Below, piece after piece: positions 5,797 to 39,753 of a stretch of DNA of 64,000 nt. A program made the translations under genes and the position numbers. Each line of letters starts with the position of its first letter. Within the stretch, counting starts at the first letter, position 1. The stretch comes from Subtercola boreus (GTDB lineage Bacteria > Actinomycetota > Actinomycetes > Actinomycetales > Microbacteriaceae). The notes beneath the pieces are model-generated. The model saw nothing but the letters and a program-made list of their open reading frames with translations, was not told the origin of the DNA and ran no database searches. The DNA lies in assembly GCF_003399645.1 (NCBI RefSeq), contig NZ_NBXD01000002.1, forward strand, positions 1-64,000. The letters are read 5' to 3'.

Positions 5797-5837
5797 ACAT
5801 TGACTTTCGGCGAAAACTTTGAATCGCTAGACACCGA

Positions 5838-5859
5838 GATCCCCGAAATGACGGGGATC
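5838..5859. other. 8-bp stem hairpin between integrase remnant and tRNA
   Basis: GATCCCCG and CGGGGATC form a perfect inverted repeat around a 6-nt loop. No T-tract follows, so it is a weak terminator at best. It may be part of the ancestral attachment or recombinase-binding region. Confidence 0.4.
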
Positions 5860-5868
5860 AAGGCACAT

Positions 5869-5942: not shown

Positions 5943-5957
5943 CGGGGCCGGCGAGGC

Positions 5958-13761: not shown

Positions 13762-13808
13762 TTGACACGTGATCCTGTGAGAACGCTCATCATGAGTGCC
13801 CTGACAGG
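13762..13808 (+). promoter_or_regulatory. phosphatase upstream region: TTGACA and imperfect palindrome
   Basis: A TTGACA hexamer at 13762-13767 could be a -35 element, but the -10 at 17-bp spacing (GCTCAT) is weak. It is followed by a 35-bp imperfect palindrome (CCTGTGAGAACGCTCAT - C - ATGAGTGCCCTGACAGG, 13774-13808) immediately before the phosphatase ATG. This could be a PhoP-type or other operator; no clear PHO-box repeats were seen. Confidence 0.35.
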
Positions 13809-13818
13809 AGTTCGAACC

Positions 13819-24604: not shown

Positions 24605-24719
24605 CCCCCGTGTTAATACCGTGTTACATCTCGGCGACTCGCGAAATGTTCGCTCAGTCTGTGTCATATGATGAAAGTCCTATCCACATGGTGAGAAATA
24701 CGAGCATCGGGAGTGTGAC

Positions 24720-25856
24720 ATGGCAGGCAGTTCGACAGATCTGGCGTACCGGGATGCCGTGGCCCTGGTCACCCCTCAGATCGAGGCGGTCGTCGATTTC
24801 GTCACCGAACATCCTGAACTCGCGCACGAAGAGACGGAGACGTCCGGGTACCTCGTGGAGCAGCTCCGCGGTGCCGGGTATTCCGTCACGACGGGGATCG
24901 CAGGCATGCCGATGGCCTTTCGCGCCGAGCTCGCCTTCGGCACGACCGGCAGAACCGTCGGGGTCGTCGCCGTCTACGACGCCCCTGCGTCGATCAACTC
25001 CGAGGGAGCGGTCGAACCCGTTCACTCCTGCGGCCACGGCCCGCAGGCCGGTGGAGTGATCGGAGCCGCCCTGGCACTGGCCCGCATCGGCGACGAACTC
25101 TCGGGAACAGTCGTCATCGTCGGCTGCCCGGCCGACGAGATCCACTCGCCGATGACGAGGCGGCAGGGAAGCGGCAAGGCGCTGACGGCTGACCACGGCG
25201 TCTGGGACAGCATCGACTTCGCCCTCTACCCGCATCCGGAGTTCATCGACACGGTCTGGCCGTCGTCGCTCTGGATGCGCCGGGAGACGGCGCGGGTGAT
25301 CGGGCAGCGAACACTGCGGCGAGACGTCATCTCGACCCCGCTCCGGGCGCTGGCGAACGTGACCACGATCGCGGAGGCGTTCGATCCGGCGATGCTCATC
25401 ATCGAGACGGTCATCGTCGACGGAGACGTCGAAGAGTCGGCCGGCATGACGTTCGAGGCCAGCTTTCTGCTCTTCGCGAAGACCGAGCTCGAACTCGACG
25501 AACGCGCGGCCGAGCTGCACGAGCTGCTCGGCCCGGCCTCGTGGACGAGTTCTGCAGCGATCGCCGGGGTGCGACCCGACGCCGCCGTCACGGCCGTGGT
25601 CGGCGACGCCTTCCGTGCAGCCGGCCGCGAATTCGACTCGAGCCCGCCGGCCCTCGGATTCGCGACCGACTTCGGCAACGTCACCCAGGTGGCCAGAGCG
25701 GCGCTCGTCGGAGTCGGTCGGGAAGGCGGCTGGCGCTATCACACCGCGGAGGGCGCAGAGCAGTTCGCGGGGCCGGCCGGCAGAGACGTTGCTGTCGCGA
25801 CCGCCGAGGTCATCGGCCTCTCCGTCATCAGGCTCTGCGCCGCCACGGAGCTGTGA
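24720..25856 (+). CDS. M20-family amidohydrolase (AbgB-like), first gene of the B6 catabolic operon
   Basis: A 378-residue metal-dependent amidohydrolase. N-terminal helix VVDFVTEHPELAHEETETSGYLVEQLRGAGY, a lid strand, then VVAVYDAP and VHSCGHGPQAGG, equivalent to the YDAL and HACGH metal boxes of the M20D/AbgB group. Later DEIHSPMTRRQGSGKAL and ATDFGNVTQVARAALVGVG complete the active site. AbgB-like enzymes cleave N-acyl amides; none is needed in the known B6 pathway, so this one may act on an N-acetyl intermediate or be an accessory. It lies 61 nt upstream of MHPC oxygenase. A -10-like TATGAT at 24667-24672 lacks a good -35. Confidence 0.75.
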   Translation: MAGSSTDLAYRDAVALVTPQIEAVVDFVTEHPELAHEETETSGYLVEQLRGAGYSVTTGIAGMPMAFRAELAFGTTGRTVGVVAVYDAPASINSEGAVEPVHSCGHGPQAGGVIGAALALARIGDELSGTVVIVGCPADEIHSPMTRRQGSGKALTADHGVWDSIDFALYPHPEFIDTVWPSSLWMRRETARVIGQRTLRRDVISTPLRALANVTTIAEAFDPAMLIIETVIVDGDVEESAGMTFEASFLLFAKTELELDERAAELHELLGPASWTSSAAIAGVRPDAAVTAVVGDAFRAAGREFDSSPPALGFATDFGNVTQVARAALVGVGREGGWRYHTAEGAEQFAGPAGRDVAVATAEVIGLSVIRLCAATEL

Positions 25857-25917
25857 AGCACCACCCAGACAACCCGCACCATCCCCCCACCACCAGAACA
25901 GAACAGGAACACCACAC

Positions 25918-27066
25918 ATGACCGACAGCCGACACGTCGCCGAGATCGCGGGCGGAGGGTTCGCAGGTCTCACCGCAGCCACCGCCCTGGCCCAGATGGG
26001 ATGGCGCGTGCGGGTGCACGAGCAGGCCGACGAGCTGCGGGCCGAGGGCGCGGGGATCGTGCTGTGGAACAACAGCCTGCAGGTGCTCGACAAGATCGGC
26101 GCCAAACCGGATCTCGAGTCGCGCTCGATGACCCCGCCGGCCTACGAGACCCGCATGAACAACGTCATCCAGTCGCAGGAGACGCTCGACGGCATCCGGT
26201 GGCGAACCATGACCCGCCCGCACCTGCACCAGACCCTGCTGACGGCGGCGCGGGAGTCGGGCGTCGAGGTCATCGCCGGCTCTGCGGTGACGAAGGCCAC
26301 GCCCGATGGCACGATCACCCTCGCCAGCGGCGAGACCGCCACCGCCGACCTGGTCATCGGGGCCGACGGGGTGACCTCGGCCGTGCGGGACTCTCTCTCG
26401 ATTCCGTTCACCAGGCAGCGATCCGGCGATGGGATCTCCCGGTTCCTGGTGCCTCGCCGCAAGGCCGAACTCCTCGCGTTGGAGCCCGAGACCGAGTGGG
26501 ACAACGTGATCGACTTCTGGAACCTCGATCCGCGGGTGCTCCGGGTGCTCTACACCCCGGCAAACGACGAAGAGCTCTACCTCGCCCTCATGTCTCCCTC
26601 GGCAGATGCCGACGGATCGCGGGTGCCGATCGATCTCGCCCTCTGGACCTCGATCTTTCCGCAGCTCGCACCCGTTCTCGAGGATGCCGCGAAGATCCAG
26701 GGGCGCTACTACGGCTACCAGACCACCCGACTCGAGCGCTGGACCGAGGGGAAAGTCGCGCTGATCGGCGATTCCGCCCATGCCATGTGCCCGGCCCTCG
26801 CCCAGGGCGCCGGCACGTCGATGCAGAACGCCTGGACCCTCGCCGTGGCAGCGACAGAAGCCCTGGCCGCCGGCGTCGACCTGCCCGCCGCGCTCACCGA
26901 GTGGGAGCGGCTCGAGCGGCCCTACACCGACATCGCCCAGGATCGCTCGCAGTGGTATGCCGACACCCGCGAGATGGCCAAAGGCAACCAGTTCACCGGT
27001 GAGAGCGTCGTGACCGCCCTCTACAATCCCACCGACCCCCACCGACACGAGGTACACGCAGCATGA
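25918..27066 (+). CDS. 2-methyl-3-hydroxypyridine-5-carboxylate (MHPC) oxygenase
   Basis: A 382-residue FAD monooxygenase of the aromatic hydroxylase family. It is assigned as the ring-opening step of B6 degradation: MHPC + O2 + NAD(P)H to acetamidomethylene-succinate (AAMS). The FAD motif is GGGFAGL (12-18), followed by LRAEGAGIVLWNN, the RPHLH box, ADLVIGADGVTS, and the second FAD motif GDSAHAMCPALAQGAG (from residue 284). From memory these segments, and TPPAYET and ELYLALMSP, closely match the Mesorhizobium loti MHPC oxygenase. Start ATG overlaps nothing; its stop overlaps the next start (ATGA). Confidence 0.88.
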   Translation: MTDSRHVAEIAGGGFAGLTAATALAQMGWRVRVHEQADELRAEGAGIVLWNNSLQVLDKIGAKPDLESRSMTPPAYETRMNNVIQSQETLDGIRWRTMTRPHLHQTLLTAARESGVEVIAGSAVTKATPDGTITLASGETATADLVIGADGVTSAVRDSLSIPFTRQRSGDGISRFLVPRRKAELLALEPETEWDNVIDFWNLDPRVLRVLYTPANDEELYLALMSPSADADGSRVPIDLALWTSIFPQLAPVLEDAAKIQGRYYGYQTTRLERWTEGKVALIGDSAHAMCPALAQGAGTSMQNAWTLAVAATEALAAGVDLPAALTEWERLERPYTDIAQDRSQWYADTREMAKGNQFTGESVVTALYNPTDPHRHEVHAA

Positions 27067-27644
27067 GCATCGATCCCTTCTACAGCGTGCGCGCATGGCA
27101 CTCCTTCGTGCAGGAGACCGTGCACGAGCTGGGCCCGGCGCCCGAACATCCCCTCGTGAAGGCCGCCGTCGCAGTGGTCTTCACGAATCCGTTCGCCGGC
27201 AGGTGGGTCGAAGACCTGTCACCGCTGACCGACGCGAGCGAAAGCCTCGGCAGAGAACTGGGTGCCCGGGCGGTGGCCCTGCTCGGCGGTCGCCCCGCAG
27301 AGAGCTACGGCAAGGGCGGGCTCGTCGGCGTGAACGGCGAGCAGGAGCACATCGTGGCCTGCGTCACGACCGTCTTCGGCAACGCGCTGCGCGCCGCGGT
27401 CGGCGGGGGCGAGGCCTGGATCTCGTCGGCGACGAAGGTCGCGACCACCGGGGCGTCGATCGATGTGCCTCTGGCGTACAAAGATGAGGTGTACGTGCGT
27501 TCGCACTACGACGCGATCACACTGACACTGCCGGATGCGCCGCGACCCGACGAGATCGTCATCATCGCGGCCGTGGCCACCGGTGGCCGGGTCAACGCCC
27601 GGGTCGGCGGCATGACGGTCGCAGACGTCGTCGCCGGCACGTGA
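27063..27644 (+). CDS. DUF1185 / amino acid synthesis family protein
   Basis: A 193-residue soluble protein, overlapping MHPC oxygenase by 4 nt. Family-like segments are KAAVAVVFTNPFAGRWVEDL, LGARAVALLGGRPAESYGKGGLVG, GEQEHIVACVTTVFGNALRAAVGGGEAWISSATK and PDEIVIIAAVATGGRVNARVGG. The family (DUF1185) has structures but no known reaction; it recurs beside catabolic operons. Strict coupling to the oxygenase suggests a role in this pathway, perhaps on a ring-cleavage intermediate or as a missing oxidation partner. That is inference. Confidence 0.8.
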   Translation: MSIDPFYSVRAWHSFVQETVHELGPAPEHPLVKAAVAVVFTNPFAGRWVEDLSPLTDASESLGRELGARAVALLGGRPAESYGKGGLVGVNGEQEHIVACVTTVFGNALRAAVGGGEAWISSATKVATTGASIDVPLAYKDEVYVRSHYDAITLTLPDAPRPDEIVIIAAVATGGRVNARVGGMTVADVVAGT

Positions 27645-27673
27645 TCGAACCGAACGGATAACGAGGAGCCGAA

Positions 27674-28453
27674 GTGACCTACACGCACACGCAGTACTAC
27701 GAAGACCAGTCCATCGCGAGCATTCTCGCCGACGCTGCACGGGCCCATCGCATTCTCGAGCTCGAGGGCCATGGCGACATGTCGATGGGACACGTCTCGT
27801 TCCGCGATCCGTTCGGTCGCGGCCTCTGGCTCAAGCGTGGCAACCTGGCGCTCAGCGAAGTCGAAGGAGACGACTTCATTCTGATCGGCTTCGACGGCAC
27901 CATGCTCGAGGGAACCGGACTGCGCCACCTCGAGTGGCCGTTGCACGCGGAGATCATGAAGGCGCGCCCCGACGTCAACTTCGTCGGGCACTCGCACCCT
28001 CACTACTCGACCGTGCTCGGCGCCTCTGACGAGAGCCTGAAACCATACAACAACCACGGTGTGTGGTTTGCATATGAGGGCGTTCCCCGGTTCACCGAAA
28101 CGAGCCACATCATCACGACCGTCCCGCTCGGGATCGCGGCCGCGAAGACCCTCGGAAACGCCCAGGCGCTGCTGCTCGCCAATCACGGGGTGGCCTTCGT
28201 CGGCAGCACGGCGGCCGAAATGACCCTCACCGGCATCTTCCTCGAGAAGGCGGCCCGCTTCCAGGTCGATCTGAAGGCATCCGGCTTCACCCCCCTGGAG
28301 CCCGACGCCGAGGAGACCAAAGAGAAGTTCGACCGCATCTACCCGGCGAAGGCCCAGCACAACTTCTGGACCTACTTCAATCGCCGCCTCGAGCGTGTCG
28401 AGGCGGCATTCGGCATCGGCATCTCGCCGATCGGGCTCCCCCCGGGCATCTGA
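27674..28453 (+). CDS. 3-hydroxy-2-methylpyridine-4,5-dicarboxylate (HMPDC) 4-decarboxylase
   Basis: A 259-residue class II aldolase-fold protein starting at GTG after ACGAGGAG. Assigned to removal of the 4-carboxylate of HMPDC to give MHPC. The metal site His residues are in GHSHPHY (His106, His108) and ANHGVAF (His171), the same layout as fuculose aldolase. The N-terminal GHGDMSMGHVSFRDPFGRGLW is typical of the decarboxylase/aldolase family. By sequence alone it could be called an aldolase; the placement between MHPC oxygenase and FHMPC dehydrogenase genes decides the call. Confidence 0.82.
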   Translation: MTYTHTQYYEDQSIASILADAARAHRILELEGHGDMSMGHVSFRDPFGRGLWLKRGNLALSEVEGDDFILIGFDGTMLEGTGLRHLEWPLHAEIMKARPDVNFVGHSHPHYSTVLGASDESLKPYNNHGVWFAYEGVPRFTETSHIITTVPLGIAAAKTLGNAQALLLANHGVAFVGSTAAEMTLTGIFLEKAARFQVDLKASGFTPLEPDAEETKEKFDRIYPAKAQHNFWTYFNRRLERVEAAFGIGISPIGLPPGI

Positions 28454-28509
28454 GCCAGCCACCACCCGTTTTCACCCACATCCCACCCCTTCGTGAAAGA
28501 GAGCAACAG

Positions 28510-29445
28510 ATGAGCAGCCTTCCCTCCATCGCCACCGTCATCGGATCGGGCACCATGGGCCCCGGCATCGCGGCCGTTCTGGCGCGAGCGGGCGCCACGG
28601 TGCGTCTGTACGACATCTCTGAAGACGCGATCGCCCGCGCCGAGGCCGCCTACGGCGTCGTGCAGGGTGTGCTCGCGGCCGTGGAGTCGCCCTCCGCCCC
28701 GGGCGGTTCTGTCAGCTTCGGCACCGACCTCGACGCGGCCCTCGTCGGCACCGAACTGATCATCGAGGCCGTGCCCGAGATCCTCGAGCTCAAGCAGAAG
28801 GTGTTCGCCGACCTCGAGGCGCGCATCGGCGACGACGTCATCATCGCCACCAACACCTCCGGCATCCCGATCAGCACCATGGCGACGTCGATGACCGTGC
28901 CCGCACGCCTCATCGGCATGCACTGGTCGAACCCGCCGCACCTCATCCCGATGATCGAGATCATTCCGGGCGCCGCCACCGATCCGGCCCTCGTGGGCCA
29001 GCTCACCGAGATCGTCAAAGCGTTCAACTACGTGCCCGTGCTCGAGAAGGAGATTCCCGGGTTCGTGGAGAACCGCGTGCTCTACGCGATCCTCCGCGAG
29101 TGCATGGCGCTGCTCGAAGAGGGCATCGTCACGCCCGAGGGCCTGGATGCCTGCGTGAAGTGGGGCATCGGCTACAAGCTGTCTGTCATCGGCCCAACGA
29201 GGCTTCTCGACATGGCGGGGCTCGACATCTACCAGGCCGTCTCGGGTTACCTGAACAAAGACCTCGACGTGAGCACCGACACACCCCAGTTCATCAAAGA
29301 CAAGATCGCGGCGGGCAAACTCGGCTTCAAGTCGAACGGCGGCATGTACGAATATGGTGAGGGCGACGTCGACGCCAAGCGCAAGGAGATCATCACCGGT
29401 CTCATCGCCGCCCGCAAGACGCTGGCCACCATTCCCAACGTCTGA
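28510..29445 (+). CDS. 5-formyl-3-hydroxy-2-methylpyridine-4-carboxylate (FHMPC) dehydrogenase
   Basis: A 311-residue NAD-dependent enzyme of the 3-hydroxyacyl-CoA dehydrogenase family. Assigned to FHMPC + NAD to HMPDC. Rossmann motif GSGTMGPG (12-19); catalytic His in GMHWSNPPH (His138); C-terminal domain with PGFVENRVLYAILRE, VKWGIGYKLSVIGP and LLDMAGLDIYQAV. From memory HWSNPPH, KWGIGYK-type and LLDMAGLDIY signatures match the Mesorhizobium loti FHMPC dehydrogenase, not fatty-acid enzymes, which have HFFNP. Its stop overlaps the next ATG by 1 nt. Confidence 0.87.
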   Translation: MSSLPSIATVIGSGTMGPGIAAVLARAGATVRLYDISEDAIARAEAAYGVVQGVLAAVESPSAPGGSVSFGTDLDAALVGTELIIEAVPEILELKQKVFADLEARIGDDVIIATNTSGIPISTMATSMTVPARLIGMHWSNPPHLIPMIEIIPGAATDPALVGQLTEIVKAFNYVPVLEKEIPGFVENRVLYAILRECMALLEEGIVTPEGLDACVKWGIGYKLSVIGPTRLLDMAGLDIYQAVSGYLNKDLDVSTDTPQFIKDKIAAGKLGFKSNGGMYEYGEGDVDAKRKEIITGLIAARKTLATIPNV

Positions 29446-30284
29446 TGGTCGACGGCCCTGCGGTGGAGAGCATCGGCGATGACCTCCACCGCACCCGGAA
29501 CGCTCCCGTCGACATCGCGTTCCGGGTGCGGGGCTCCGGCCCCGCCGTCGTGCTGTTGCACGGCACCACGGCGAACCACGCCGTCTGGGAGCCGGTCGGC
29601 GATGCGCTGGAAGGGCGGGCCACCGTCATCGCTCTCGACCAGCGCGGCCACGGGCGAAGCGACAAGCCGGCCCAGGGCTACTCGGGTGACGACTTCGTCA
29701 CCGACGTCATCACTGTGCTCGATGCCCTCGGGGTGCAGCAGGCCCTGGTGGCCGGCCACTCTCTCGGCGGGCGGAATGCCTGGCTCGCCGCGGCGCGGCA
29801 TCCGGACCGGGTCGTGGGGGCCGTCGTCGTCGACTACTCCCCCTACGTCGAGATGCCCGTGCTCGACCAGCTCGAGGAACGCGTCGCCCTCGGCTTTCGT
29901 CCGTTCGCCTCACCCGACGAGATCGAGGCCTATCTTCGAGGCCGCTACCCGGCCATCCTGCCCGGCGCGATCGAGCGGCGAACCCGGTGGGGCTACCGTC
30001 TGCTCGCTGACGGGCAGTGGGTACCGCGGGCGTCAGCGCCGGCGATGGCGAAGCTCATCGACGGCTTCCGTACGCCCTACGATCGGGAATTCCGCGAGGT
30101 CACCGTGCCAATGACCCACCTCCGCGGCAGTAAGAGCGCGCTCGTCAGCCCGACCGCCTGGCTGAGAACCATCGCCGACCGGCCCGCAGACCGCTGGGTC
30201 GAGGTCGCGGGCGCCGACCACTACATTCCCGAGGAGCGACCCGAGCTCGTCGCCGTCGAGATCGCTCGCGCTCTCGACACCTGA
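29445..30284 (+). CDS. 2-(acetamidomethylene)succinate hydrolase
   Basis: A 279-residue alpha/beta hydrolase. Assigned to the last step of B6 degradation: acetamidomethylene-succinate (AAMS) to succinic semialdehyde, acetate, ammonia and CO2. Oxyanion strand VVLLHGTTANHAVWEP, DQRGHGRSDKP, nucleophile elbow GHSLGG (Ser106), VVDYSPYVEMP cap, and catalytic His in GADHY (His259). From memory the DQRGHG-SDKP, GHSLG-RN and D(F/Y)(S/T)PY-E segments closely follow the M. loti enzyme. It is the last gene of the plus-strand operon, convergent with the GMC gene 52 nt away. Confidence 0.85.
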   Translation: MVDGPAVESIGDDLHRTRNAPVDIAFRVRGSGPAVVLLHGTTANHAVWEPVGDALEGRATVIALDQRGHGRSDKPAQGYSGDDFVTDVITVLDALGVQQALVAGHSLGGRNAWLAAARHPDRVVGAVVVDYSPYVEMPVLDQLEERVALGFRPFASPDEIEAYLRGRYPAILPGAIERRTRWGYRLLADGQWVPRASAPAMAKLIDGFRTPYDREFREVTVPMTHLRGSKSALVSPTAWLRTIADRPADRWVEVAGADHYIPEERPELVAVEIARALDT

Positions 30285-30336
30285 CCGGCCGCTCCTTCCG
30301 GCACGACCGATCACCCGCCTGGGCCGGTTACGCGGT

Positions 30337-31878
30337 CTACCCCGGGTAGGAGGCCGCGAACGTCTCGGCGATCGCCAGGACGGCAGCATGCACCGGCCCC
30401 GCCGTGATGGAGGGGATCACCGAGGCGTCGACGACGCGCACCCCGTCCACTCCGCGCAGTCGCAGATCCGGCGTCACGGGCGCCTCATCGGAACGGCCCA
30501 TGCTCAGGGTGCCGACCGGGTGATGGTGCGTGATCGCGGCGCGGGCGATGAATGCATCCTCCTCCGCTCGGGTCGAGAGCGGCCCGACGGGCAGTACTTC
30601 GGCGCGTCGCCAGCGGGCGAGCCCCTCCGACCCGCCGACCAACCGGGCGTGTTCGAGCGCCAGTCGAAACATGTCCCGGTCGTGCTCGGTGCTGAGGTAG
30701 TTCGGATCGATCACCGGTTCGTTCTCGATGTCGGGCCCCGAGATGCGAAGCGAACCTCGGCTCGTCGGATTGGTGACGCCGAACAGCAGCGTGTAGCCCT
30801 CTCCGGGGTTCACGCCCGCCGCATCCGGCGCCAGCGACTCCGAGGCGCTCGGGCCCACCACGCAGCCCACCACCAGATCGACGACTCCGGATGTCTCGGC
30901 GATCCCATTGCGTGAGAGGTAGGTCATCGACTCCGAGAGTTGCAGCCTCGTCGGCGGAACCGGAATCCGCGACGAATACAGATTGCCCGCGCCGAGCAGA
31001 TGGTCGTGCAGGTTGGTGCCGATCTGCGGCGACTCGACCACGGTCTCGACACCGGCCGCACGCAACACCTCCGGATCGCCGATACCCGACCTCATGAGCA
31101 ACAGCGGGTCGCCGATCGATCCACCGCAGAGAACGACCTCGTCGGCCTGAAGCACCTCGCTCCGGCCATTCCGGGTCACGGCGACACCGGTGACCCGGCC
31201 GTGGTCGAGAAGGAGGCGGTGAACGGTCACCCCGGTCACAAGAGTCAGGTTCTGCCGTTCGAGCACCGGGTCGAGATAGACATCGCAGACGGTCACCCGC
31301 TCGCCGCCCCGAATGGTCAGCGAGTTGGGGGTGGCCCCGATCATCTCGCCGCGATTGTGGTCGGGGATGCGGGCGACTCCGAGCGCCTCCCAGGCGGAGA
31401 GGTAGTCGAGCACCAGGGGGCTCGAGGCCTCGGGGCCGGGAAGCAGCACGGGGAGGGGGCCGGTATCTCCGTGCACCTCATCTCTGCCACCCGAGAAGCT
31501 CTCCGAACGCATGAATGCCGGCAGCAGGGAGTCCCACGACCAGCGGTCGTCACCGGTCAGCTGTACCCAGCGCTCGAAGTCGGCACGGCATCCGCGCATG
31601 TGCGCCATCGCGTGCACGAGGCTCGACCCACCGGGTCCCTTGCCGCGCGCCCAGTCGAGTGAACGCCCAGCGAGACCGGCCTGCGGCGTGGTGCGGTAGG
31701 CCCAGTCGTACGACCGGCCGTGGATGAACGGCCATAGTTCGGGCCGCCGCATCTCGGGGTCGGTCACCCTGGTGCCCGCCTCGAGCACCGTCACGCGCCT
31801 GGTCGGGTCGGCGCTGAGCCGGTTGGCGACGACACTGCCCGCCGAGCCGGCCCCGATGATCAGAACGTCGGCGCCCAT
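30337..31878 (-). CDS. GMC-family flavoenzyme, pyridoxine 4-oxidase (probable)
   Basis: A 513-residue FAD alcohol oxidase. FAD motif VLIIGAGSAGSVVANRLS at the N-terminus, GKGPGGSSLVHAM signature, and C-terminal active site THHHPVGTLSMG with His451 and His453. The usual Asn/His near the C-terminus is replaced in ITAGPVHAAV by Pro495. M. loti pyridoxine 4-oxidase is reported to use His460, His462 and Pro504; all three are offset here by exactly 9. It would convert pyridoxine to pyridoxal. Alternative: 4-pyridoxate dehydrogenase, also a GMC protein. It is the last gene of the minus-strand B6 operon. Confidence 0.82.
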   Translation of the reverse strand: MGADVLIIGAGSAGSVVANRLSADPTRRVTVLEAGTRVTDPEMRRPELWPFIHGRSYDWAYRTTPQAGLAGRSLDWARGKGPGGSSLVHAMAHMRGCRADFERWVQLTGDDRWSWDSLLPAFMRSESFSGGRDEVHGDTGPLPVLLPGPEASSPLVLDYLSAWEALGVARIPDHNRGEMIGATPNSLTIRGGERVTVCDVYLDPVLERQNLTLVTGVTVHRLLLDHGRVTGVAVTRNGRSEVLQADEVVLCGGSIGDPLLLMRSGIGDPEVLRAAGVETVVESPQIGTNLHDHLLGAGNLYSSRIPVPPTRLQLSESMTYLSRNGIAETSGVVDLVVGCVVGPSASESLAPDAAGVNPGEGYTLLFGVTNPTSRGSLRISGPDIENEPVIDPNYLSTEHDRDMFRLALEHARLVGGSEGLARWRRAEVLPVGPLSTRAEEDAFIARAAITHHHPVGTLSMGRSDEAPVTPDLRLRGVDGVRVVDASVIPSITAGPVHAAVLAIAETFAASYPG

Positions 31879-32613: not shown

Positions 32614-32618
32614 GTCTT

Positions 32619-33374
32619 TCATCCTCCGTAATAGTGGGGAGCGAGCTTCCACTCCTGGAACGACGCGAGCTCGTGGGAGGGATAGATGTCGGCGTCTCTC
32701 GTTCGCGCGAGGTAGTTGAGGCGGCGGATTGCCTCGACCGACTTCGTGGGGTCGAGGTGGAAGCCCGCGATCCACTCCTTCTCGAGTGTCGTGCGGGTGT
32801 ATGCCGCATCGCCGCAGAACAGCATGCTGCGGTCATTCTCGAGCTCGACCAGCAGTGAGTAGTGGCCGATGGTGTGGCCGGGAGTCTCGAACAGCCAGAC
32901 ACCCGGAACGATCTCGTAGTCGCCCGAAATGGGGCGGTACGTCACATCGGCGTGGTCGAACGACAGGTCGGAGTAGCCGAGGCGCTCGAACGGCTCAGGC
33001 ACCTTGGCGTGGCGGAGCTCCTCTTTGTGCACCAGGGTCGCCGCTTTCGTTATGTGCTTGTTGCCGCCGACGTGATCGAAATGGAAGTGCGAGTTGACCA
33101 CGATGTCGACGTCGTCGGGGCTGAAGCCGCAGGCGGCGAGCTGCGCCGGAATGGTCTGCTCGGGCGTCTGCAGGGGCAGCTCGAACGGCAGCACGGCATT
33201 GACGTGGTCGAGGTCGAAACCGGTGTCGTAGAGGATCAGGGCGTCGCGATGCTCGACCAGCACGCTGTACACGGGAAAACGCACCGGGTTGCCTGCGTTG
33301 ATGTGCCAGTGCACGTCTGACTCATCGATCACCAGCGTGCCGCCGTCGAGCAGATAGACCTTCGGGTCTGTCAT
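32619..33374 (-). CDS. 4-pyridoxolactonase (metallo-beta-lactamase fold)
   Basis: A 251-residue zinc hydrolase that opens 4-pyridoxolactone to 4-pyridoxate. Metal motif NSHFHFDH (His96, His98, Asp100, His101), then TPGHTIGHYS, GDAAY and the C-terminal YPSHE His. The N-terminal KVYLLDGGTLVIDE, VRFPVYSVLVEH and LGYSDLSF segments match, from memory, the M. loti enzyme. The fold is shared with N-acyl-homoserine lactonases, but the operon context with pyridoxal dehydrogenase and pyridoxine oxidase favours pyridoxolactone. First gene of the minus-strand operon, about 45 nt from a promoter with TTGACA. Confidence 0.87.
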   Translation of the reverse strand: MTDPKVYLLDGGTLVIDESDVHWHINAGNPVRFPVYSVLVEHRDALILYDTGFDLDHVNAVLPFELPLQTPEQTIPAQLAACGFSPDDVDIVVNSHFHFDHVGGNKHITKAATLVHKEELRHAKVPEPFERLGYSDLSFDHADVTYRPISGDYEIVPGVWLFETPGHTIGHYSLLVELENDRSMLFCGDAAYTRTTLEKEWIAGFHLDPTKSVEAIRRLNYLARTRDADIYPSHELASFQEWKLAPHYYGG

Positions 33375-33420
33375 AAAGTCCCGCTTTCACAAATTATCAT
33401 CAGACGTTAACAATCAATCA

Positions 33421-33450
33421 AGCTATGAGAATTGTGACAGGCCTGTCAAG
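33421..33450 (-). promoter_or_regulatory. promoter/operator of the pyridoxolactonase operon
   Basis: Minus-strand -35 TTGACA (33445-33450) and weak -10 TAGCTT (33421-33426), 18 bp apart. A perfect palindrome TGACAGGCCTGTCA (33436-33449) overlaps the -35. Between them, read in the direction of transcription, lies AATTCTCATA (33425-33434), shared exactly with the ABC importer promoter. Confidence 0.55.
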
Positions 33451-33490
33451 CGTCGGCCGGGGAGTTTACGAGCCGGTAACACGGACCCGC

Positions 33491-33895
33491 TCACCCGGCC
33501 GCGACAGCGGGGGCGTCTTCGAAGCGGGGCGTTCCCGTGTAGTAGGCCCAGCGGTAGCAGTGGTCGAGCATCGGCCGGGCATCGAAGTCACCGACGCAGG
33601 TCGCGTCCTGATAACGGTCACCGCTCGAATCGACATAGTGCGTTCGGCAGAGAACCCGCCAGGTGGAGGCGCTGACCGTCTCGTCGATGACGAGATGCTC
33701 AGACGGCAGCCAGCACTCCGTACTGGTGATCTCGGCCGGGTCGACGTTCGACGTCGGACCGGCCACCTGGGCCAGCGTCTCGAGTGCGGCGGCATCCTGA
33801 GACGACAGCGGAGTCGACGGCTGAGGCGAGCCGGCGCAGGCCGTGAGCGCCAGCGTGAGCGCGACGACGAGCGCCATCGGGGTGCGGCGTTTCAT
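33491..33895 (-). CDS. small putative lipoprotein
   Basis: A 134-residue exported protein with start ATG after GAGGAGG. Basic N-terminus MKRRTP, hydrophobic core and lipobox LTAC (Cys20), so it is likely lipidated and outside the membrane. The mature part has three further Cys residues or more (TECWLP, VLCRTH, ATCVGD, DHCYRW) that may pair. No family known. It sits between the two B6 gene blocks; whether it belongs to them is not clear. Confidence 0.7.
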   Translation of the reverse strand: MKRRTPMALVVALTLALTACAGSPQPSTPLSSQDAAALETLAQVAGPTSNVDPAEITSTECWLPSEHLVIDETVSASTWRVLCRTHYVDSSGDRYQDATCVGDFDARPMLDHCYRWAYYTGTPRFEDAPAVAAG

Positions 33896-33963
33896 AGGAC
33901 AACCTCCTCGTACGTCATCGTTGGCGGAGCGTGTTTCGAGCGTGTAACAACTGAATTTCAAGC

Positions 33964-33992
33964 TTGGCATCTGTTGTAAATTCTCATATCGT
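33964..33992 (+). promoter_or_regulatory. promoter of the BMP-type ABC importer operon
   Basis: -35 TTGGCA (33964-33969) and -10 TATCGT (33987-33992) are exactly 17 bp apart. AATTCTCATA (33979-33988) lies between them at almost the same distance from the -35 (9 versus 10 nt) and in the same orientation to transcription as in the pyridoxolactonase promoter. Confidence 0.6.
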
Positions 33993-34079
33993 AGCGTCAC
34001 CCCTGCACAATGTAAGAGAACTTCGCTATCGCAGCACCTGAACCCGGGGGCCCATCACCTTGAGAGGAAGATCCCGGCA

Positions 34080-35183
34080 ATGACAAGTCTCACCAGCGGC
34101 AGCCGCCGCAGCACCGCCAGGCGCCTGACGGTCATCACCGTCTCCGGCGCGCTGGCCCTCAGCCTCGCCGCCTGTTCATCGGGCCGCGGTTCCAGCGACT
34201 CCAGCAGCTCCGGAGCATCGTCGGCCGCGACCACGGTCACCCAGTTCGCGCTTGTCGCCCCCGAGAACGAGTCGGACTACGGCTACAACCAGGCCGGTAT
34301 CGACGCGGCGAACGACGCAGCCAAAGAGCTCGGCATCGCTGTCACCGTCGTGCCCGACGCCGGTTACGACAACATCGAGACCGTCCTCACCCAGGTGGCC
34401 GACGGAGGAGCGCAGTTCATCGTCGCTCACGCCTCGGGGTACAACGTGGGCGCCGCCAGCACCGCGGCCGCCAAGAAGGTCCCCATTCTGATTCAGGATG
34501 CCGGCGCCGACGAGAACGTGCCCGGACAGATCGCGGCAGCCAAGCCCGAAGGCCAGGAGGGCGGCTACCTCGCCGGCATCGCCGCCGCGATGTCGACGAC
34601 CACCAAGAAGGTCGGAATCGTGGTGTCGGCCGACAACGCGAACTGGTTCGCTATGTCGTCGGGATTCGCAGAGGGCGTCTTCAGCGTCGACCCGACCATT
34701 CAGGTGCTCTACACCTCCGTCGGTCCGGCAGCCTATGCCGACGCCGCGGGGGGAAAGACCGCCACCGAACAGATCATCGCCTCTGGAGCGGATGTCGTGT
34801 TCGGAATGGGCGACGGTGCGACGCACGGTTACCTTCAGGCGATCGATGCTGCCGCGGGTGTGAAGTACATCGCCGACATCGGCGACGTCACCCCCGGCCT
34901 CAGCGACCCGAGAAAGCTCCTCACCTCGGTGCGCTGGAACTACGAACCCGCCTACGTGGCGGCGATCAAGGATGTCGACGCCGGCACTTTCGGAACGAAG
35001 ACATACCCGGTCGACGTCGAGAACGGCGGCATGTACCTGCAGAAGACCGATGCCATGACCGCCGACATCACGGCTGCCGTCGACAAGGCCTCGCAGGGCA
35101 TCATCGACGGATCGATCAAGCCGACGATCGCCACCTCGGCGGCCGAGGTCGCTGCGGTGATCGCCGCCAAGAAGGGCGCCTGA
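34080..35183 (+). CDS. BMP-family ABC transporter substrate-binding lipoprotein, candidate vitamin B6 receptor
   Basis: A 367-residue lipoprotein of the basic membrane protein / PnrA family. Signal sequence with lipobox LSLAAC (Cys32), a Ser/Gly linker, then TTVTQFALVAPENESDYGYNQAGIDAANDAAKELGI, ETVLTQVADGGAQFIVAHASGYN, EGGYLAGIAAAMSTTTKKVGIV and GADVVFGMGDGATHGYLQAIDAA. Known family members bind nucleosides, autoinducers or similar small molecules. First gene of a four-gene importer inside the B6 catabolic region and sharing its promoter box, so pyridoxine or a relative is the proposed ligand (inference). Confidence 0.85.
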   Translation: MTSLTSGSRRSTARRLTVITVSGALALSLAACSSGRGSSDSSSSGASSAATTVTQFALVAPENESDYGYNQAGIDAANDAAKELGIAVTVVPDAGYDNIETVLTQVADGGAQFIVAHASGYNVGAASTAAAKKVPILIQDAGADENVPGQIAAAKPEGQEGGYLAGIAAAMSTTTKKVGIVVSADNANWFAMSSGFAEGVFSVDPTIQVLYTSVGPAAYADAAGGKTATEQIIASGADVVFGMGDGATHGYLQAIDAAAGVKYIADIGDVTPGLSDPRKLLTSVRWNYEPAYVAAIKDVDAGTFGTKTYPVDVENGGMYLQKTDAMTADITAAVDKASQGIIDGSIKPTIATSAAEVAAVIAAKKGA

Positions 35184-35188
35184 GCACG

Positions 35189-36796
35189 ATGACCATCGCC
35201 GGTGCACTGACCACGGGTGACGTCATCTCGCTGAGAGGCATCACCAAGGCGTTCCCCGGCGTCATCGCCAACGACGATGTCTCTCTCGACATCGTCGGCG
35301 GCCAGGTGCACTGCCTGCTGGGCGAGAACGGGGCTGGCAAGTCGACGCTCATCAGCATCCTCGCCGGTATGCAGCAACCCGATTCGGGAACGGTAGCCAT
35401 CGGCGGCGAGATCGTCGACATCTCGTCGCCGAAGGTGGCCGTCGACCACGGCATCGGAGTGGTGCACCAGCACTCCACCCTCGTTCCCGCCTTCACCGTG
35501 CTCGAGAACCTCATGCTCGGCGAGACCGGCGTGATGCTCGACAAGAAGCGGGCGGCCGAGCGGCTCGCCGAACTCGCCGACCTGCTCGGCGTGCAGATCG
35601 ACCCGCACGTTCTGGCCTCCGACCTCGGGCTCGGGCAGCAGCAGCAGGTCGAGATCGCCAAGGCGATGTGGAAGGGCAGTCGGCTGCTGATCCTCGACGA
35701 GCCCACGTCGATGCTCACCCCGCAGGCCATCGAACACCTCGGGGAGAGCATCGCCCGGGTCAAGGCCCAGGGCCTGGCCGTCGTGCTCATCACGCACAAG
35801 CTGCGCGAGGCGTACGCGATGGGCGACTGCGTGACCATCCTCCGCGGCGGCCGCAACGTCGGCACCATCGGGGTCGACGAGCTCGCCTCCTACACCGAAG
35901 ACCAGGCGCGTGACGCCATCCTCGCCGCAATGTTCGGCGACGACCTCGCTGCGGCCGGAGAAAGTGCCTCCGAGCTCGCGGGCGCAGCCGAGGCCACCCT
36001 CGAGTCGCGTTCCATCGACGCCGACACGCGCCCCGTCCGCCTCGAGCTGCGGGGCGTGACCAGCCGCGCGAGCGGGCGCGACGTCGAGGCCGAAGACGTC
36101 ACGCTTACGGTGCGGGAGGGCGAGATCCTGGGTATTGCCGGCATCGACGGCCACGGCCAGGCAGCGCTCGCCGAGGTCGTCGCCGGGCAGCGCTCGGCGT
36201 CATCCGGGGCCGTGATCTTCGACGGCGCCGACATCACCCGCTCGGGCGTGCACAGCCGCCAGCAACTCGGCGTGCGATACGTGACGGATGACCGGCTCTA
36301 CGAGGGCACGGTGGGCTCGATGTCGGTCGCACTCAACCTCGTGATCAAACGCATCGGGCAGCGGCCCTTCTGGCGCTCGGGCCGGATCCAGCCGAAGGCT
36401 GTCGACACCGAGGCAAGGCGGTTGATCGACGAGTACGGAATCCGTACTCCGTCGCCGGGCACTCGCGCCGGAACCCTCTCCGGGGGCAACATCCAGAAGA
36501 TCCTCCTGGCCCGCGAACTCACCAACGGCGCACGGCTCGTCGTGGTCAACAAGCCCACCTACGGGCTGGATCTGAAGACCGTGCGCCTGGTGCGGGAGAT
36601 ACTCATCGACTTCGCGGCGAAGGGCGGGTCTGTGCTGCTGCTCTCCACCGACCTCGACGAGCTCATCGAGCTCTCCCACCGCATCGACGTCATCTCGCGG
36701 GGTCGCCTTGTTGGCTCCGTGGTGAACGACGGAGCCGGAACGGCAGAGAAGGTGGGCCAGTACATGACCGGCGCGATCGAAGGCACTGACCGATGA
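35189..36796 (+). CDS. ABC transporter ATP-binding protein, duplicated RbsA/MglA type
   Basis: A 535-residue protein with two nucleotide-binding domains. N-terminal domain: Walker A GENGAGKST (from residue 45), Q-loop, signature LGLGQQQQVEIAKAMW, Walker B LLILDEPTSM. The C-terminal domain (from about 285) has a degenerate Walker A (GIAGIDGHGQAAL), signature LSGGNIQKILLARELTNGARLVVVNKPTYGLDLKTV. Asymmetric NBDs of this kind power BMP/ribose-type importers. 5 nt after the receptor gene and overlapping the first permease by 4 nt. Confidence 0.93.
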   Translation: MTIAGALTTGDVISLRGITKAFPGVIANDDVSLDIVGGQVHCLLGENGAGKSTLISILAGMQQPDSGTVAIGGEIVDISSPKVAVDHGIGVVHQHSTLVPAFTVLENLMLGETGVMLDKKRAAERLAELADLLGVQIDPHVLASDLGLGQQQQVEIAKAMWKGSRLLILDEPTSMLTPQAIEHLGESIARVKAQGLAVVLITHKLREAYAMGDCVTILRGGRNVGTIGVDELASYTEDQARDAILAAMFGDDLAAAGESASELAGAAEATLESRSIDADTRPVRLELRGVTSRASGRDVEAEDVTLTVREGEILGIAGIDGHGQAALAEVVAGQRSASSGAVIFDGADITRSGVHSRQQLGVRYVTDDRLYEGTVGSMSVALNLVIKRIGQRPFWRSGRIQPKAVDTEARRLIDEYGIRTPSPGTRAGTLSGGNIQKILLARELTNGARLVVVNKPTYGLDLKTVRLVREILIDFAAKGGSVLLLSTDLDELIELSHRIDVISRGRLVGSVVNDGAGTAEKVGQYMTGAIEGTDR

Positions 36797-37905
36797 AACC
36801 AACCGGCTCGGCCCCCCGACTGGCCCAGGGTCTCGTGCGATCCGTCGTACCCGTGCTGCTGGCGCTGCTCGTCTCGGGCCTGATCATGCTCGCCATCGGC
36901 GCCCACCCGCTGGACTTCTTCGCCGGCGTGTGGAAGTACGGCATCACCGGCAGCAACTGGCAGCGCAGCCTCTCGCTGATGTCGCCGTTGCTGATCGTGG
37001 CCATCGGACTCATCGTGGCCTTTCGCGGCCAGCTCTGGAACCTCGGCTACAACGGTCAGTACCTGCTCGGCGCCGTCGTCGCGTCAGGGCTCGGGCCGAT
37101 GCTGTTCGCGGTCATGCCCGCCTTCCTCGCCACCATCATCGTTTTCATCGTCGCCATCCTCGCCGGCGCCGTGTGGTCGCTCATCCCCGCGCTGCTCAAG
37201 GCCCGGTACGGCACCAACGAGATCATCACGTCGCTGGTGATGTCCTTTATCGCCGTGGGGGTCGTGAACCTGCTCATCAAGGGCGTGTTCAAAGACCCCG
37301 GCACCTCGACGCCGCAGACCACGGTCATTCCTGACACCGATCTGCTGCCCTACATTCCCGGCACCGAGATCCACATCGGCTTCGTGCTGGCGATCGTGCT
37401 GGCCATCGTGGCGCAGTACGTTCTGAGCCGTACCTCCTTCGGACTGCGGGTGGACATCTTCGGCGCAAGCCCCAAGGCGGCCCGCCACATGGGGCTGAAC
37501 TCGACCTGGATGGTCATTCTGCTGTTCGCTCTCTCGAGCGGTCTGATCGCGTTCGCGGGATCGATCGACATTCTCGGCCAGTTCAGCTACCAGCGGGCCG
37601 ACTGGGACCCCCGGTACGGCGACGCAGTCATGCCACTGGTGTTCCTCGCGCGATTCCGTCCGGTCGCCGCCATTCCGTTCGTGGCGTTCTACGCCGTACT
37701 CGCGACCGGTGGAACGCTGGCCAGCCAGCAGGCGGGGTTGAACGTGGACTTCCTCCTGGTGATCGTGGGCCTCATCCTGCTCTTCATGACCGTCACCGAG
37801 TACATCGGAGAGCGCCGCCGACTCGGTCAGAGCTACCTTCCGCCGGGCCTCAGGCGCAGCCTGCCGGTTCCCCTCCGCGCCGAGTCCGAGAGGACCCCGG
37901 TATGA
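36793..37905 (+). CDS. ABC transporter permease (BMP-associated, first)
   Basis: A 370-residue polytopic membrane protein with eight to ten hydrophobic segments. Family signatures LNLGYNGQ-like (LWNLGYNGQYLLGAVVASGL), ARYGTNEIITSLVMSFIAVGVVNLLIKG, and FGLRVDIFGASPKAARHMGLN (the EAA-type cytoplasmic loop contacting the ATPase) are present. Pairs with the next permease as a heterodimeric channel. Overlaps both neighbours by 4 nt. Confidence 0.92.
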   Translation: MKPTGSAPRLAQGLVRSVVPVLLALLVSGLIMLAIGAHPLDFFAGVWKYGITGSNWQRSLSLMSPLLIVAIGLIVAFRGQLWNLGYNGQYLLGAVVASGLGPMLFAVMPAFLATIIVFIVAILAGAVWSLIPALLKARYGTNEIITSLVMSFIAVGVVNLLIKGVFKDPGTSTPQTTVIPDTDLLPYIPGTEIHIGFVLAIVLAIVAQYVLSRTSFGLRVDIFGASPKAARHMGLNSTWMVILLFALSSGLIAFAGSIDILGQFSYQRADWDPRYGDAVMPLVFLARFRPVAAIPFVAFYAVLATGGTLASQQAGLNVDFLLVIVGLILLFMTVTEYIGERRRLGQSYLPPGLRRSLPVPLRAESERTPV

Positions 37906-38837
37906 GCGACATGCTCTCGGCAGCCTTCGTCACCGTCTTCATCGCCACGGTCATCGCTCAGGCGATGCCCCTCATGCTGGCCGCGGTCGGGGAGACCCTC
38001 GGCGAACAGGCGGGCGTGCTCAACCTCGGCATCGAGGGCGTGATGCTCGTCGGCGCCTACACCGGGTTCGTCGTGACCCTCACCACGGGCAGTTTCTGGA
38101 TCGGGATGCTCGGCGGCGCGATCGGCGGCGTGGCCGCGAACCTGGCCATGCTCATCCTGAACGTGTGGCTCGGCCTGAACCAGATCGTCATCGGGCTCGC
38201 GATCACACTGATCGGCGAGGGCATCACCAGCGTGCTGTACCTGCAGAACTACACCAAGTCCCCCGCGAGCCTGGGCCAGCAGCCGAAGCTCACCCTGCCG
38301 GGGCTCTCCGACATCCCTGTGATCGGCCAGGCGCTGTTCCAGCAGTCGGGAATCTTCTGGATCTGCATTCTGCTGACGCTCGGCCTGGCCTTCGCCCTGG
38401 CGCGCACGAACTGGGGCCTGTCGACCCGTTCGGCCGGGCAGAAGCCATCGTCTCTCGACGCGGCCGGAGGCAGTGTGATGCGCACCCGGTCGATGGCCGT
38501 GCTGCTGAGCGGCGCCCTCGCCGGCCTGGGCGGTGCCTACCTTTCCCTTCTGACAACGGCCACATTCAGCCCGTTCCTCACCAACGGACTCGGTTTCATC
38601 GCGATCGTCATCACCATGCTCTCCCGGGGGCGCATCCTCGTCGTCATGATCACGTCTCTCGTCTACGGTCTGGCCGTGGCCGTCGGCCCGGCACTTCAGG
38701 TGGTCGGGTTCACCGTGCCCGCCGACATCATCAAGATGCTCCCGTTCATCATTGTCATCGTGATGCTGATCGTCTTCGCGCGAAGCTCCGTCGTGCCGCC
38801 GGCCCTGGGCGCACCGTACACACGCGGAGCGCGGTGA
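37902..38837 (+). CDS. ABC transporter permease (BMP-associated, second)
   Basis: A 311-residue polytopic membrane protein. Signatures LMLAAVGETLGEQAGVLNLGIEGVMLVGAYTGF at the N-terminus, LNQIVIGLAITLIGEGITSVLY, GLSTRSAGQKPSSLDAAGGSVMRTRSMAVLLSGALAGLGGAYLSL and TNGLGFIAIVITMLSRGR. This is the second half of the permease pair of nucleoside-type BMP importers. Its stop is 46 nt before the IclR start, so the regulator may be in the same transcript. Confidence 0.92.
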   Translation: MSDMLSAAFVTVFIATVIAQAMPLMLAAVGETLGEQAGVLNLGIEGVMLVGAYTGFVVTLTTGSFWIGMLGGAIGGVAANLAMLILNVWLGLNQIVIGLAITLIGEGITSVLYLQNYTKSPASLGQQPKLTLPGLSDIPVIGQALFQQSGIFWICILLTLGLAFALARTNWGLSTRSAGQKPSSLDAAGGSVMRTRSMAVLLSGALAGLGGAYLSLLTTATFSPFLTNGLGFIAIVITMLSRGRILVVMITSLVYGLAVAVGPALQVVGFTVPADIIKMLPFIIVIVMLIVFARSSVVPPALGAPYTRGAR

Positions 38838-38883
38838 GGGCCCGTCTGGAGCAACACGCGGATAAGATCGATCGGAGCCGACT

Positions 38884-39702
38884 ATGAATGCCAACGACAA
38901 CAACGCCGAGCTGGCCCAGACCCCCGCCGCTGAGCAGGCGACACCCGAGCCCCAGCGCACGAAGGGTGTCGACAGCGCCCGTCGGGCGCTGCAGATCCTT
39001 CTCGAGTTCAGCGAGCAGATGCCGGAACTGACGGTCGACAACATTCTCGAGAAGCACGACATCTCGGTTCCGAGCGCCTACCGCTACATCTCTCTCCTGC
39101 GCGAACTCGACCTCATCGAGGAGCGCGACAAGGGTCGCTTCGTGCTGTCACCCCAGGTTCTGCGCCTCTCCCGTGCGGCAGAGGCGACGATGGACTTCCG
39201 CGCGCAGGTGCAGCCCATCCTGAACACCATGGCCGAAGAGACCGGTGAGACCGCTCTGTATCTCCGACGCGTCAACGACTCGGCGGTCTGCCTGGCCATC
39301 GCCAAGTCGGAACATCCGATCTCCATCTCCTTCCAGCCGGGCAACCGTATGCCCCTGCACGGAGGCGCCGGCGCGAAGCTGCTCCTGAGCGAACTGACCC
39401 CGTCGAAGCTCGCGCAGTACTTCAACCGTCTCGTGCCGTCCCTGTCGAAGCCCGCCCAGAAGAAACTCGAGACCGACCTCGAAACGCTTCGGAAGACCGG
39501 CTACGCCGAGAGTGCCGGCGAAGTCGACCGCGGTGTCTGGGCCAGCGCGGCCAGCGTCCACACCAACGGCACACTCGTGGGCGCCCTCACGATCGTCGCT
39601 CCCGACTACCGTCTCTCCGACGAGCACAAGACCGAGATCGCCCGTTCGGTGCGCGCGGGCGCAGAAGAATTCCGCGCCGCGCTCGACGGACGCCGCCGCT
39701 AG
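38884..39702 (+). CDS. IclR-family transcriptional regulator, candidate regulator of B6 genes
   Basis: A 272-residue regulator. A polar N-terminal tail of about 25 residues precedes the winged helix KGVDSARRALQILLEFSEQMPELTVDNILEKHDISVPSAYRYISLLRELDLIEERDKGRFVLS. The ligand-binding domain has GETALYLRRVNDSAVCLAIAKSEHPISISFQPGNRMPLHGGAGAKLLLSE and a C-terminal ARSVRAGAEEFRAAL. IclR proteins usually control nearby catabolic operons in response to a pathway compound. Placed at the end of the importer operon, it is the best candidate to bind the shared AATTCTCATA box. Confidence 0.88.
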   Translation: MNANDNNAELAQTPAAEQATPEPQRTKGVDSARRALQILLEFSEQMPELTVDNILEKHDISVPSAYRYISLLRELDLIEERDKGRFVLSPQVLRLSRAAEATMDFRAQVQPILNTMAEETGETALYLRRVNDSAVCLAIAKSEHPISISFQPGNRMPLHGGAGAKLLLSELTPSKLAQYFNRLVPSLSKPAQKKLETDLETLRKTGYAESAGEVDRGVWASAASVHTNGTLVGALTIVAPDYRLSDEHKTEIARSVRAGAEEFRAALDGRRR

Positions 39703-39753
39703 CCCCCGCCCGCGGTCGCGACGTCGGGCCGCTTCGGAGGGGGATGAGGCCCG

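Follow-up and report, generated by a model that had tools for sequence, protein, structure and literature searches.

The window analysed here, a stretch of 64,000 nucleotides from Subtercola boreus (contig NZ_NBXD01000002.1, positions 1 to 64,000), holds a block of genes for the degradation of vitamin B6. Comparison with congeners delimits the block as an insertion of ~15.1 kb at ~24,607-39,752 of a Microbacteriaceae chromosome. It carries all seven B6 genes named in a preliminary description, which had proposed a nearly complete vitamin B6 degradation pathway I, alongside a B6-type ABC importer and a regulator of the IclR family, and nothing besides B6 genes was recognised in the insertion. 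To that description we add the PF06684, small lipoprotein and M20 genes within the block, as well as the finding that the block is a discrete insertion. On sequence evidence we read it, with a probability of about 0.85, as a horizontally acquired island for taking up vitamin B6 and breaking it down completely. The features are as follows.

24,607-39,752, no strand: genomic island with the whole B6 cluster, flanked by an MFS/MarR gene pair and by glyS
24,720-25,856, + strand: M20-family hydrolase, optional in the cluster (Pfam Peptidase_M20, 33.4 bits)
25,918-27,066, + strand: 2-methyl-3-hydroxypyridine-5-carboxylate (MHPC) oxygenase, a flavin, ring-opening enzyme (388 bits to 3alj)
27,063-27,644, + strand: PF06684 / DUF1185 'AA_synth' protein, proposed finisher of the ring-opened product (Pfam 215.5 bits, cut-off 27)
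27,674-28,453, + strand: class II aldolase-fold protein, presumed 3-hydroxy-2-methylpyridine-4,5-dicarboxylate (HMPDC) decarboxylase, or 4-pyridoxate decarboxylase (Pfam Aldolase_II)
28,510-29,445, + strand: 3-hydroxyacyl-CoA dehydrogenase (3HCDH)-family dehydrogenase, homologue of 5-formyl-3-hydroxy-2-methylpyridine-4-carboxylate (FHMPC) dehydrogenase and candidate also for 4-pyridoxate oxidation (293 bits to 4om8)
29,445-30,284, + strand: E-2-(acetamidomethylene)succinate hydrolase (198 bits to 3kxp)
30,285-30,336, no strand: site, between hydrolase and oxidase, of a PEBP (PF01161) gene in relatives, absent here
30,337-31,878, - strand: pyridoxine 4-oxidase, GMC family (554 bits to 4ha6)
31,879-32,622, - strand: pyridoxal 4-dehydrogenase, SDR type (NF047923, 376 bits, cut-off 325)
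32,619-33,374, - strand: 4-pyridoxolactonase (NF047925, 426 bits, cut-off 325)
33,491-33,895, - strand: small predicted lipoprotein with four invariant Cys (18-row alignment)
34,080-35,183, + strand: B6 ABC transporter substrate-binding protein (NF047927, 441 bits, cut-off 400)
35,189-36,796, + strand: B6 ABC transporter ATPase (NF047930, 792 bits, cut-off 670)
36,793-37,905, + strand: B6 ABC transporter permease 2 (NF047929, 498 bits, cut-off 400)
37,902-38,837, + strand: B6 ABC transporter permease 1 (NF047928, 341 bits, below the cut-off of 465)
38,884-39,702, + strand: IclR-family regulator (Pfam IclR_C, HTH_IclR)

The seven pathway genes are neighbours, as had been claimed, all of them open frames within 24,720-39,702. 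On the forward strand the M20 hydrolase is followed by the MHPC oxygenase, the PF06684 protein, the class II aldolase-fold protein, the FHMPC-dehydrogenase homologue and the alpha/beta hydrolase; the pyridoxine 4-oxidase, the SDR pyridoxal 4-dehydrogenase, the 4-pyridoxolactonase and the small lipoprotein lie on the reverse strand, and after them come the four-gene ABC importer and the IclR regulator, again on the forward strand. Conservation was assessed in two sets of loci that share some genomes. A family search of 398 genomes for an MHPC oxygenase match at 1e-40 returned 26 genomes, namely the window's own, 23 with full-length matches (at least 57% identity), one with a fragment (G012) and one with a match at 35% identity (G276); leaving out the window, the fragment and the 35% match gives 23 family loci. 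A scan of named genomes contributed the best 80 of 94 loci, grouped by record title into 35 actinobacterial and 45 proteobacterial ones. The order MHPC oxygenase, PF06684, aldolase, FHMPC dehydrogenase, hydrolase recurs in 23/23 family loci (with the hydrolase cut by a contig end in L049), and homologues of the block genes are grouped together in 33 of the 35 named actinobacterial loci, so that chance grouping is excluded.

The edges of the island were drawn from three congeners without an MHPC oxygenase, compared out of 11 congeners. Both flanks of the window align to all three by BLAST, the alignment ending at window positions 24,545-24,556 and restarting at 39,753; aligning two of these congeners with each other (L169 with L170) moved the left edge to ~24,607. 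The island is absent at the same site in the three congeners examined, where the flanks are separated by ~100 bp (L169), ~180 bp (L170) or ~1,300 bp (L168), and the MHPC oxygenase was found in 0/10 congeners within the family search. No exact direct or inverted repeats of at least 9 bp join the island ends. We infer that the island was horizontally acquired. In L168 the corresponding interval (~4601-5902), flanked by the MFS gene and glyS, is filled by 1.3 kb of other DNA and is possibly an insertion hot spot.

Six of the seven enzyme assignments are predictions drawn from best PDB matches or curated cut-offs. The M. loti enzyme of the same name is the best PDB match of four of the proteins: the pyridoxine 4-oxidase (4ha6 and 3t37, both at 554 bits; next molecule 271), the MHPC oxygenase (3alj; next molecule 96 bits), the hydrolase (3kxp; next 70 bits) and the FHMPC dehydrogenase (4om8; next 145 bits). 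When the oxidase is aligned to 4ha6, the three signature residues pointed out earlier (His451, His453 and Pro495) stand opposite a His, a His and a Pro, and the SDR and the lactonase both exceed their NCBIfam equivalog cut-offs. The MHPC oxygenase starts near 25,918; a frame in another phase at 26,001 has no family match. The preliminary description had added that generic annotation would miss the pathway. That is true of the MHPC oxygenase, the hydrolase and the oxidase, which reach no NCBIfam cut-off, but not of the SDR, the lactonase and three of the four ABC subunits, which NCBIfam names as B6 proteins. Plasmid-borne B6 clusters were also considered: homologues of the MHPC oxygenase occur in eight plasmid records (36-40% identity), four of which were examined, the three annotated ones being no B6 clusters and the fourth (L058) carrying no annotation. 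Plasmid matches to the FHMPC dehydrogenase number five, at 35-36%, and plasmid matches to the SDR none.

In the proposed route, a PnrA/Bmp-type ABC system would, judging from the NCBIfam names, import B6; the GMC oxidase would convert pyridoxine to pyridoxal, the SDR would convert pyridoxal to 4-pyridoxolactone, and the lactonase would open this to 4-pyridoxate. Passage from 4-pyridoxate to MHPC would involve oxidation of the 5-hydroxymethyl group and loss of the 4-carboxyl, for which rhizobia need a separate flavin dehydrogenase; here the 3HCDH-family enzyme might perform both oxidations of the 5-hydroxymethyl group. The MHPC oxygenase would then open the ring and the alpha/beta hydrolase cleave the amide, the PF06684 protein might speed the conversion of aminomethylene- or formylsuccinate to succinic semialdehyde, and the IclR protein would regulate the cluster. 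What the cluster encodes is a variant of vitamin B6 degradation pathway I rather than a copy of it, since a search for one of the defining genes came back empty: the route differs from that of Mesorhizobium in that neither the genome nor any of the 35 actinobacterial loci holds an orthologue of 4-pyridoxate dehydrogenase. The description of a nearly complete pathway I therefore holds for six of the seven genes, with the step from 4-pyridoxate to FHMPC left without an orthologue and the HMPDC decarboxylase placed at superfamily level.

Mesorhizobium-type clusters hold two GMC genes, one 51-56% and the other 34-37% like the window's oxidase, the second placed between the decarboxylase and the FHMPC dehydrogenase. 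In the M. loti LU cluster (L116), which served as the reference, we take this second gene, by its place in the gene order, to be the 4-pyridoxate dehydrogenase. A flavin (GMC) 4-pyridoxate dehydrogenase so defined is present in 42/45 proteobacterial versus 0/35 actinobacterial loci, and no orthologue was found in the window's cluster or genome. The M. loti gene has been identified, according to titles in the reference list of PMC3538738. Of the four PF00732 matches in the window's genome, two align to the rhizobial dehydrogenase with an E-value of 1e-30 or lower; they were rejected as candidates, one being the oxidase itself (38%) and the other a short 317-aa frame (35%). Among 34 whole genomes, near copies (87-100%) of the rhizobial dehydrogenase occur only in the three proteobacterial ones. 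One family genome (G152, 98% complete; taken to be that of L086, the Ruicaihuangia caeni record) combines the lactonase, the SDR and the full set of lower genes with the absence of any PF00732 match, and so at least one genome probably relies on something other than a GMC enzyme to convert 4-pyridoxate to FHMPC. A second genome, G206 (77% complete), likewise has no PF00732 match.

In one way of closing the gap, the pyridoxine 4-oxidase would also oxidise the 5-hydroxymethyl group of 4-pyridoxate and no extra enzyme would be needed. The oxidase shares the GMC family with the rhizobial 4-pyridoxate dehydrogenase and is encoded in the window's cluster; however, it is closer to rhizobial oxidases (51-56%) than to rhizobial 4-pyridoxate dehydrogenases (34-38%), and G152 has the cluster with no PF00732 match at all. 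The oxidase gene lies outside the examined stretch in 18/35 actinobacterial loci, a weaker argument given that some contigs are short, and in two family genomes (G165 and G216) a GMC gene stands just past the stretch examined. We consider a dual role of the oxidase improbable.

Alternatively, FHMPC could be made by a dehydrogenase encoded outside the conserved cluster, which we regard as credible, though not probable. A gene assigned by eye to the Zn-type alcohol dehydrogenases stands beside the cluster in G152/L086, G206, G047 and L090, and such linkage suggests that there may be other solutions for this step. Moreover, four other actinobacterial cluster genomes (G405, G191, G400 and G403) encode GMC proteins 40-46% like the rhizobial dehydrogenase, about the level of paralogues inside rhizobial genomes (39-45%); that of G191 is ~25 kb from its cluster and the others are unlinked. 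In the window's genome, however, the best matches are 36% to the Zn enzyme and at most 38% to the GMC dehydrogenase. No second conserved oxidoreductase emerged when left-over open reading frames of at least 180 aa from the 23 family loci were clustered, the only families found in at least four loci being an Amidohydro_2 protein, PEBP and an antisense frame. Nor does any other dehydrogenase recur in at least five of eight lower-pathway clusters from Streptomyces, Georgenia, Arthrobacter and others (L074, L085, L089, L091, L092, L093, L095 and L096), all of which hold an ABC importer, the MHPC oxygenase, PF06684, the aldolase, the FHMPC-dehydrogenase homologue, the hydrolase, PEBP and IclR. These lower-pathway-only clusters have their own ABC importer and may feed on 4-pyridoxate. 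In L086 (6100-7532) and L090 (6070-8129) the region beside the B6 cluster comprises divergent Zn-type alcohol dehydrogenase and VOC-like genes, again named by eye, and in L090 also a PF06684 paralogue.

We tentatively favour, at somewhat less than even odds, the 3HCDH-family enzyme of the cluster, which would catalyse both oxidations, from alcohol to aldehyde to acid. Ordinary members of the 3-hydroxyacyl-CoA dehydrogenase family oxidise alcohols. Ala87 and Asn115 are found together in 34/34 actinobacterial rows of the dehydrogenase alignment (the window included), where 42/42 proteobacterial rows have Asn and Asp; they are two of 20 positions that separate the two groups. The same pair occurs in both ordinary 3HCDH proteins compared (L160 and L171); L173, another 3HCDH protein from this genome, fell outside the motif pattern and was left out of the comparison. 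The pattern agrees with a single dehydrogenase that goes from alcohol to acid, but also with divergence.

The second main finding concerns the PF06684 gene. It lies directly 3' of the MHPC oxygenase in 78/80 named loci and 23/23 family loci; of the two loci without it, L088 is cut by a contig end, and L094 is a true exception in which two more distant copies lie upstream. Between the window and the 45 proteobacterial copies the PF06684 protein is 58-67% identical (median 62), as against 52-56% (median 53) for the MHPC oxygenase. An AlphaFold2 model of the protein matches 3byq and 2qtp, with a Foldseek TM-score of 0.85 to 3byq, and at E 0.001 or better Foldseek returned PF06684 chains only. Glu93, His96, Arg176 and Arg180 are invariant in 14 PF06684 rows. 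Crystal structures of the family are described, in the accessible part of PMC2954203, as hexamers resembling Bacillus chorismate mutase, with a conserved Glu90/His93/Arg176 cavity and the function unassigned; these residues correspond by spacing to Glu93, His96 and either Arg176 or Arg180 here. In the literature searched, no role for the PF06684 gene was found among the matches listed, as far as their accessible text goes.

Minimal proteobacterial clusters (L115 and L121, ~4.6-12.3 kb) consist of a GntR-like regulator, the hydrolase, an ABC importer, the MHPC oxygenase, PF06684 and PEBP, and possibly serve to import and metabolise MHPC or a closely related compound. Because PF06684 stays with the MHPC oxygenase, the hydrolase and PEBP in these clusters, which lack the earlier steps, it probably has a role at or after ring opening. 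As candidates for the missing dehydrogenase, PEBP and PF06684 were both rejected: each co-occurs with the rhizobial dehydrogenase and is found in the minimal clusters without that step.

Homologues of PF06684 occur in 382 plasmid records, from which 16 neighbourhoods were hand-picked. In six of these PF06684 is accompanied by an alpha/beta hydrolase, a flavin reductase, an LLM oxygenase and an aldehyde dehydrogenase, which we take to be the trigonelline (tgn) gene set. In five, an amidohydrolase adjoins it, with an FAD monooxygenase close by in two and a succinate-semialdehyde dehydrogenase in two; one combines an alpha/beta hydrolase, an aromatic hydroxylase and a succinate-semialdehyde dehydrogenase; and two (L158 and L167) place PF06684 beside 6-hydroxynicotinate reductase and UPF0280, with two copies in tandem in L158. 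The remaining two show other contexts.

According to the accessible text of PMC3538738, the hydrolase reaction gives the semialdehyde, ammonia, acetate and CO2; deamination and decarboxylation must therefore take place besides amide cleavage. We suggest that PF06684 would catalyse one of these two steps; as its likeliest role, though at well under even odds, we propose that it speeds the conversion of aminomethylene- or formylsuccinate to succinic semialdehyde. In Acinetobacter baylyi the PF06684 homologue TgnF is said to stimulate the TgnE-dependent oxidation of succinic semialdehyde (accessible part of PMC7913881). The protein might instead be a non-catalytic accessory of the MHPC oxygenase, directly after which it is encoded in nearly all named loci; for another homologue, HcdD, the same part of PMC7913881 reports that no comparable stimulation was detectable, so that an effect could not be shown. 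On the other hand, homologues accompany other types of oxygenase and, in the two neighbourhoods just mentioned, 6-hydroxynicotinate reductase, and the four residues invariant in 14 rows also argue against an accessory role, which we think rather unlikely. A broader synthesis would make PF06684 an unrecognised enzyme family that, after the opening of N-heteroaromatic rings, turns aminomethylene- or formyl-dicarboxylates into semialdehydes, a step common to the degradation of B6 and trigonelline and to reductive nicotinate degradation, while a four-electron NAD dehydrogenase would replace the flavin 4-pyridoxate dehydrogenase in actinobacteria. Taken jointly, these two propositions are unlikely to be both correct.

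Among the other genes of the island, three of the four transporter subunits exceed the cut-offs of NCBIfam models named 'putative B6 ABC transporter'. The M20 gene has a homologue in 10/23 family and 10/35 named actinobacterial loci. The small lipoprotein has no Pfam match over cut-off; of the 20 named actinobacterial loci with a lactonase gene, 19 have a homologue (in L090 at ~2 kb from the lactonase), the one miss, L069, being cut inside the lactonase. A PEBP gene occurs in 77/80 loci, comprising 45/45 proteobacterial and 32/35 actinobacterial ones, and the three misses (L082, L087 and L088) are short contigs; in Herbiconiux gentiana (L062) it lies at 14457-14912, between hydrolase and oxidase. 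No PEBP gene was found in the window and no PF01161 match in its genome, so that this strain offers a natural experiment on the need for PEBP. Elsewhere in the window, positions 1-6000 have a GC content of 0.60-0.63 versus 0.64-0.73 in the rest and encode signal-peptidase-like and laminin-G-like proteins and a tRNA-Gly (5869-5942); this is possibly another island. An alkaline phosphatase gene lies outside the B6 island at 13,762-15,519 on the forward strand.

Several observations weigh against the block being an island for complete B6 catabolism. The naming of the FHMPC dehydrogenase agrees with its best PDB match, yet the window homologue scores 381 bits on NF042925, below the equivalog cut-off of 500, as does a Streptomyces copy (384), whereas the L116 protein reaches 560; a missed cut-off fits a changed role but would fit plain divergence too. 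The aldolase-fold protein has the fold ascribed to it and a homologue in 23/23 family loci, but it is only 25-34% like the rhizobial decarboxylase and matches Mlr6791 (2z7b) at 58 bits, under three 'Aldolase' chains at 72-74 bits, so that HMPDC decarboxylase is a presumed function, assigned at superfamily level from gene position and the decarboxylation that the route requires. For succinic semialdehyde dehydrogenase, the top match of the genome scores 550 bits, below the cut-off of 646, although such an enzyme is likely encoded. Loss of PEBP might mean that this copy is impaired. The GMC proteins of the four actinobacterial cluster genomes and the linked Zn-type alcohol dehydrogenases of four relatives (61-67% identical) count here as well, as does the position of the oxidase beyond the examined stretch in about half of the actinobacterial loci; substrates may differ among clusters. 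The cluster might accordingly serve another 3-hydroxypyridine, with vitamin B6 as a side substrate, and some clusters do consist of the lower pathway only, with another type of ABC importer. However, the window's cluster includes the upper-pathway oxidase, SDR and lactonase, assigned by best PDB match or over their cut-offs, and we consider that alternative very unlikely beside vitamin B6 as the substrate.

All catabolic genes of the B6 cofactor in M. loti were reported as identified in 2013, in the accessible text of PMC3538738, and the actinobacterial clusters examined lack one of these genes. This gap, together with a PF06684 gene that almost always adjoins that of the MHPC oxygenase, implies that the pathway as described so far is incomplete, and a function for PF06684 would help explain many catabolic clusters, given its spread over plasmids. 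No published actinobacterial pathway I gene cluster was found among the matches listed in the literature searched, mostly outside subscription journals. Pathway I, as found in Mesorhizobium loti and Pseudomonas sp. MA-1, has homologues of the island's pyridoxine 4-oxidase, MHPC oxygenase, hydrolase, FHMPC dehydrogenase and B6 ABC transporter, and likewise the PF06684 gene after the MHPC oxygenase. By comparison, the island has neither a 4-pyridoxate dehydrogenase orthologue nor PEBP, its decarboxylase candidate is divergent, and its regulator is IclR rather than GntR; its SDR and lactonase are part of the cluster, whereas neither was found within 10 kb in proteobacterial loci. The B6 clusters of Herbiconiux and other Microbacteriaceae have the same gene order, with MHPC oxygenases up to 87% identical, and several Herbiconiux clusters also include M20, oxidase, SDR, lactonase, lipoprotein and transporter, but the clusters of these relatives retain PEBP between hydrolase and oxidase. 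The tgn genes of Acinetobacter baylyi share the PF06684 homologue TgnF (PMC7913881, in its accessible part), but use a two-component oxygenase and include no B6 enzymes. Pathway II of Pseudomonas sp. IA and Arthrobacter Cr-7 is a further case of B6 degradation in an actinobacterium, according to the accessible text of PMC3538738; it ends in 2-(hydroxymethyl)-4-oxobutanoate, whereas the window has the MHPC-branch enzymes of pathway I.

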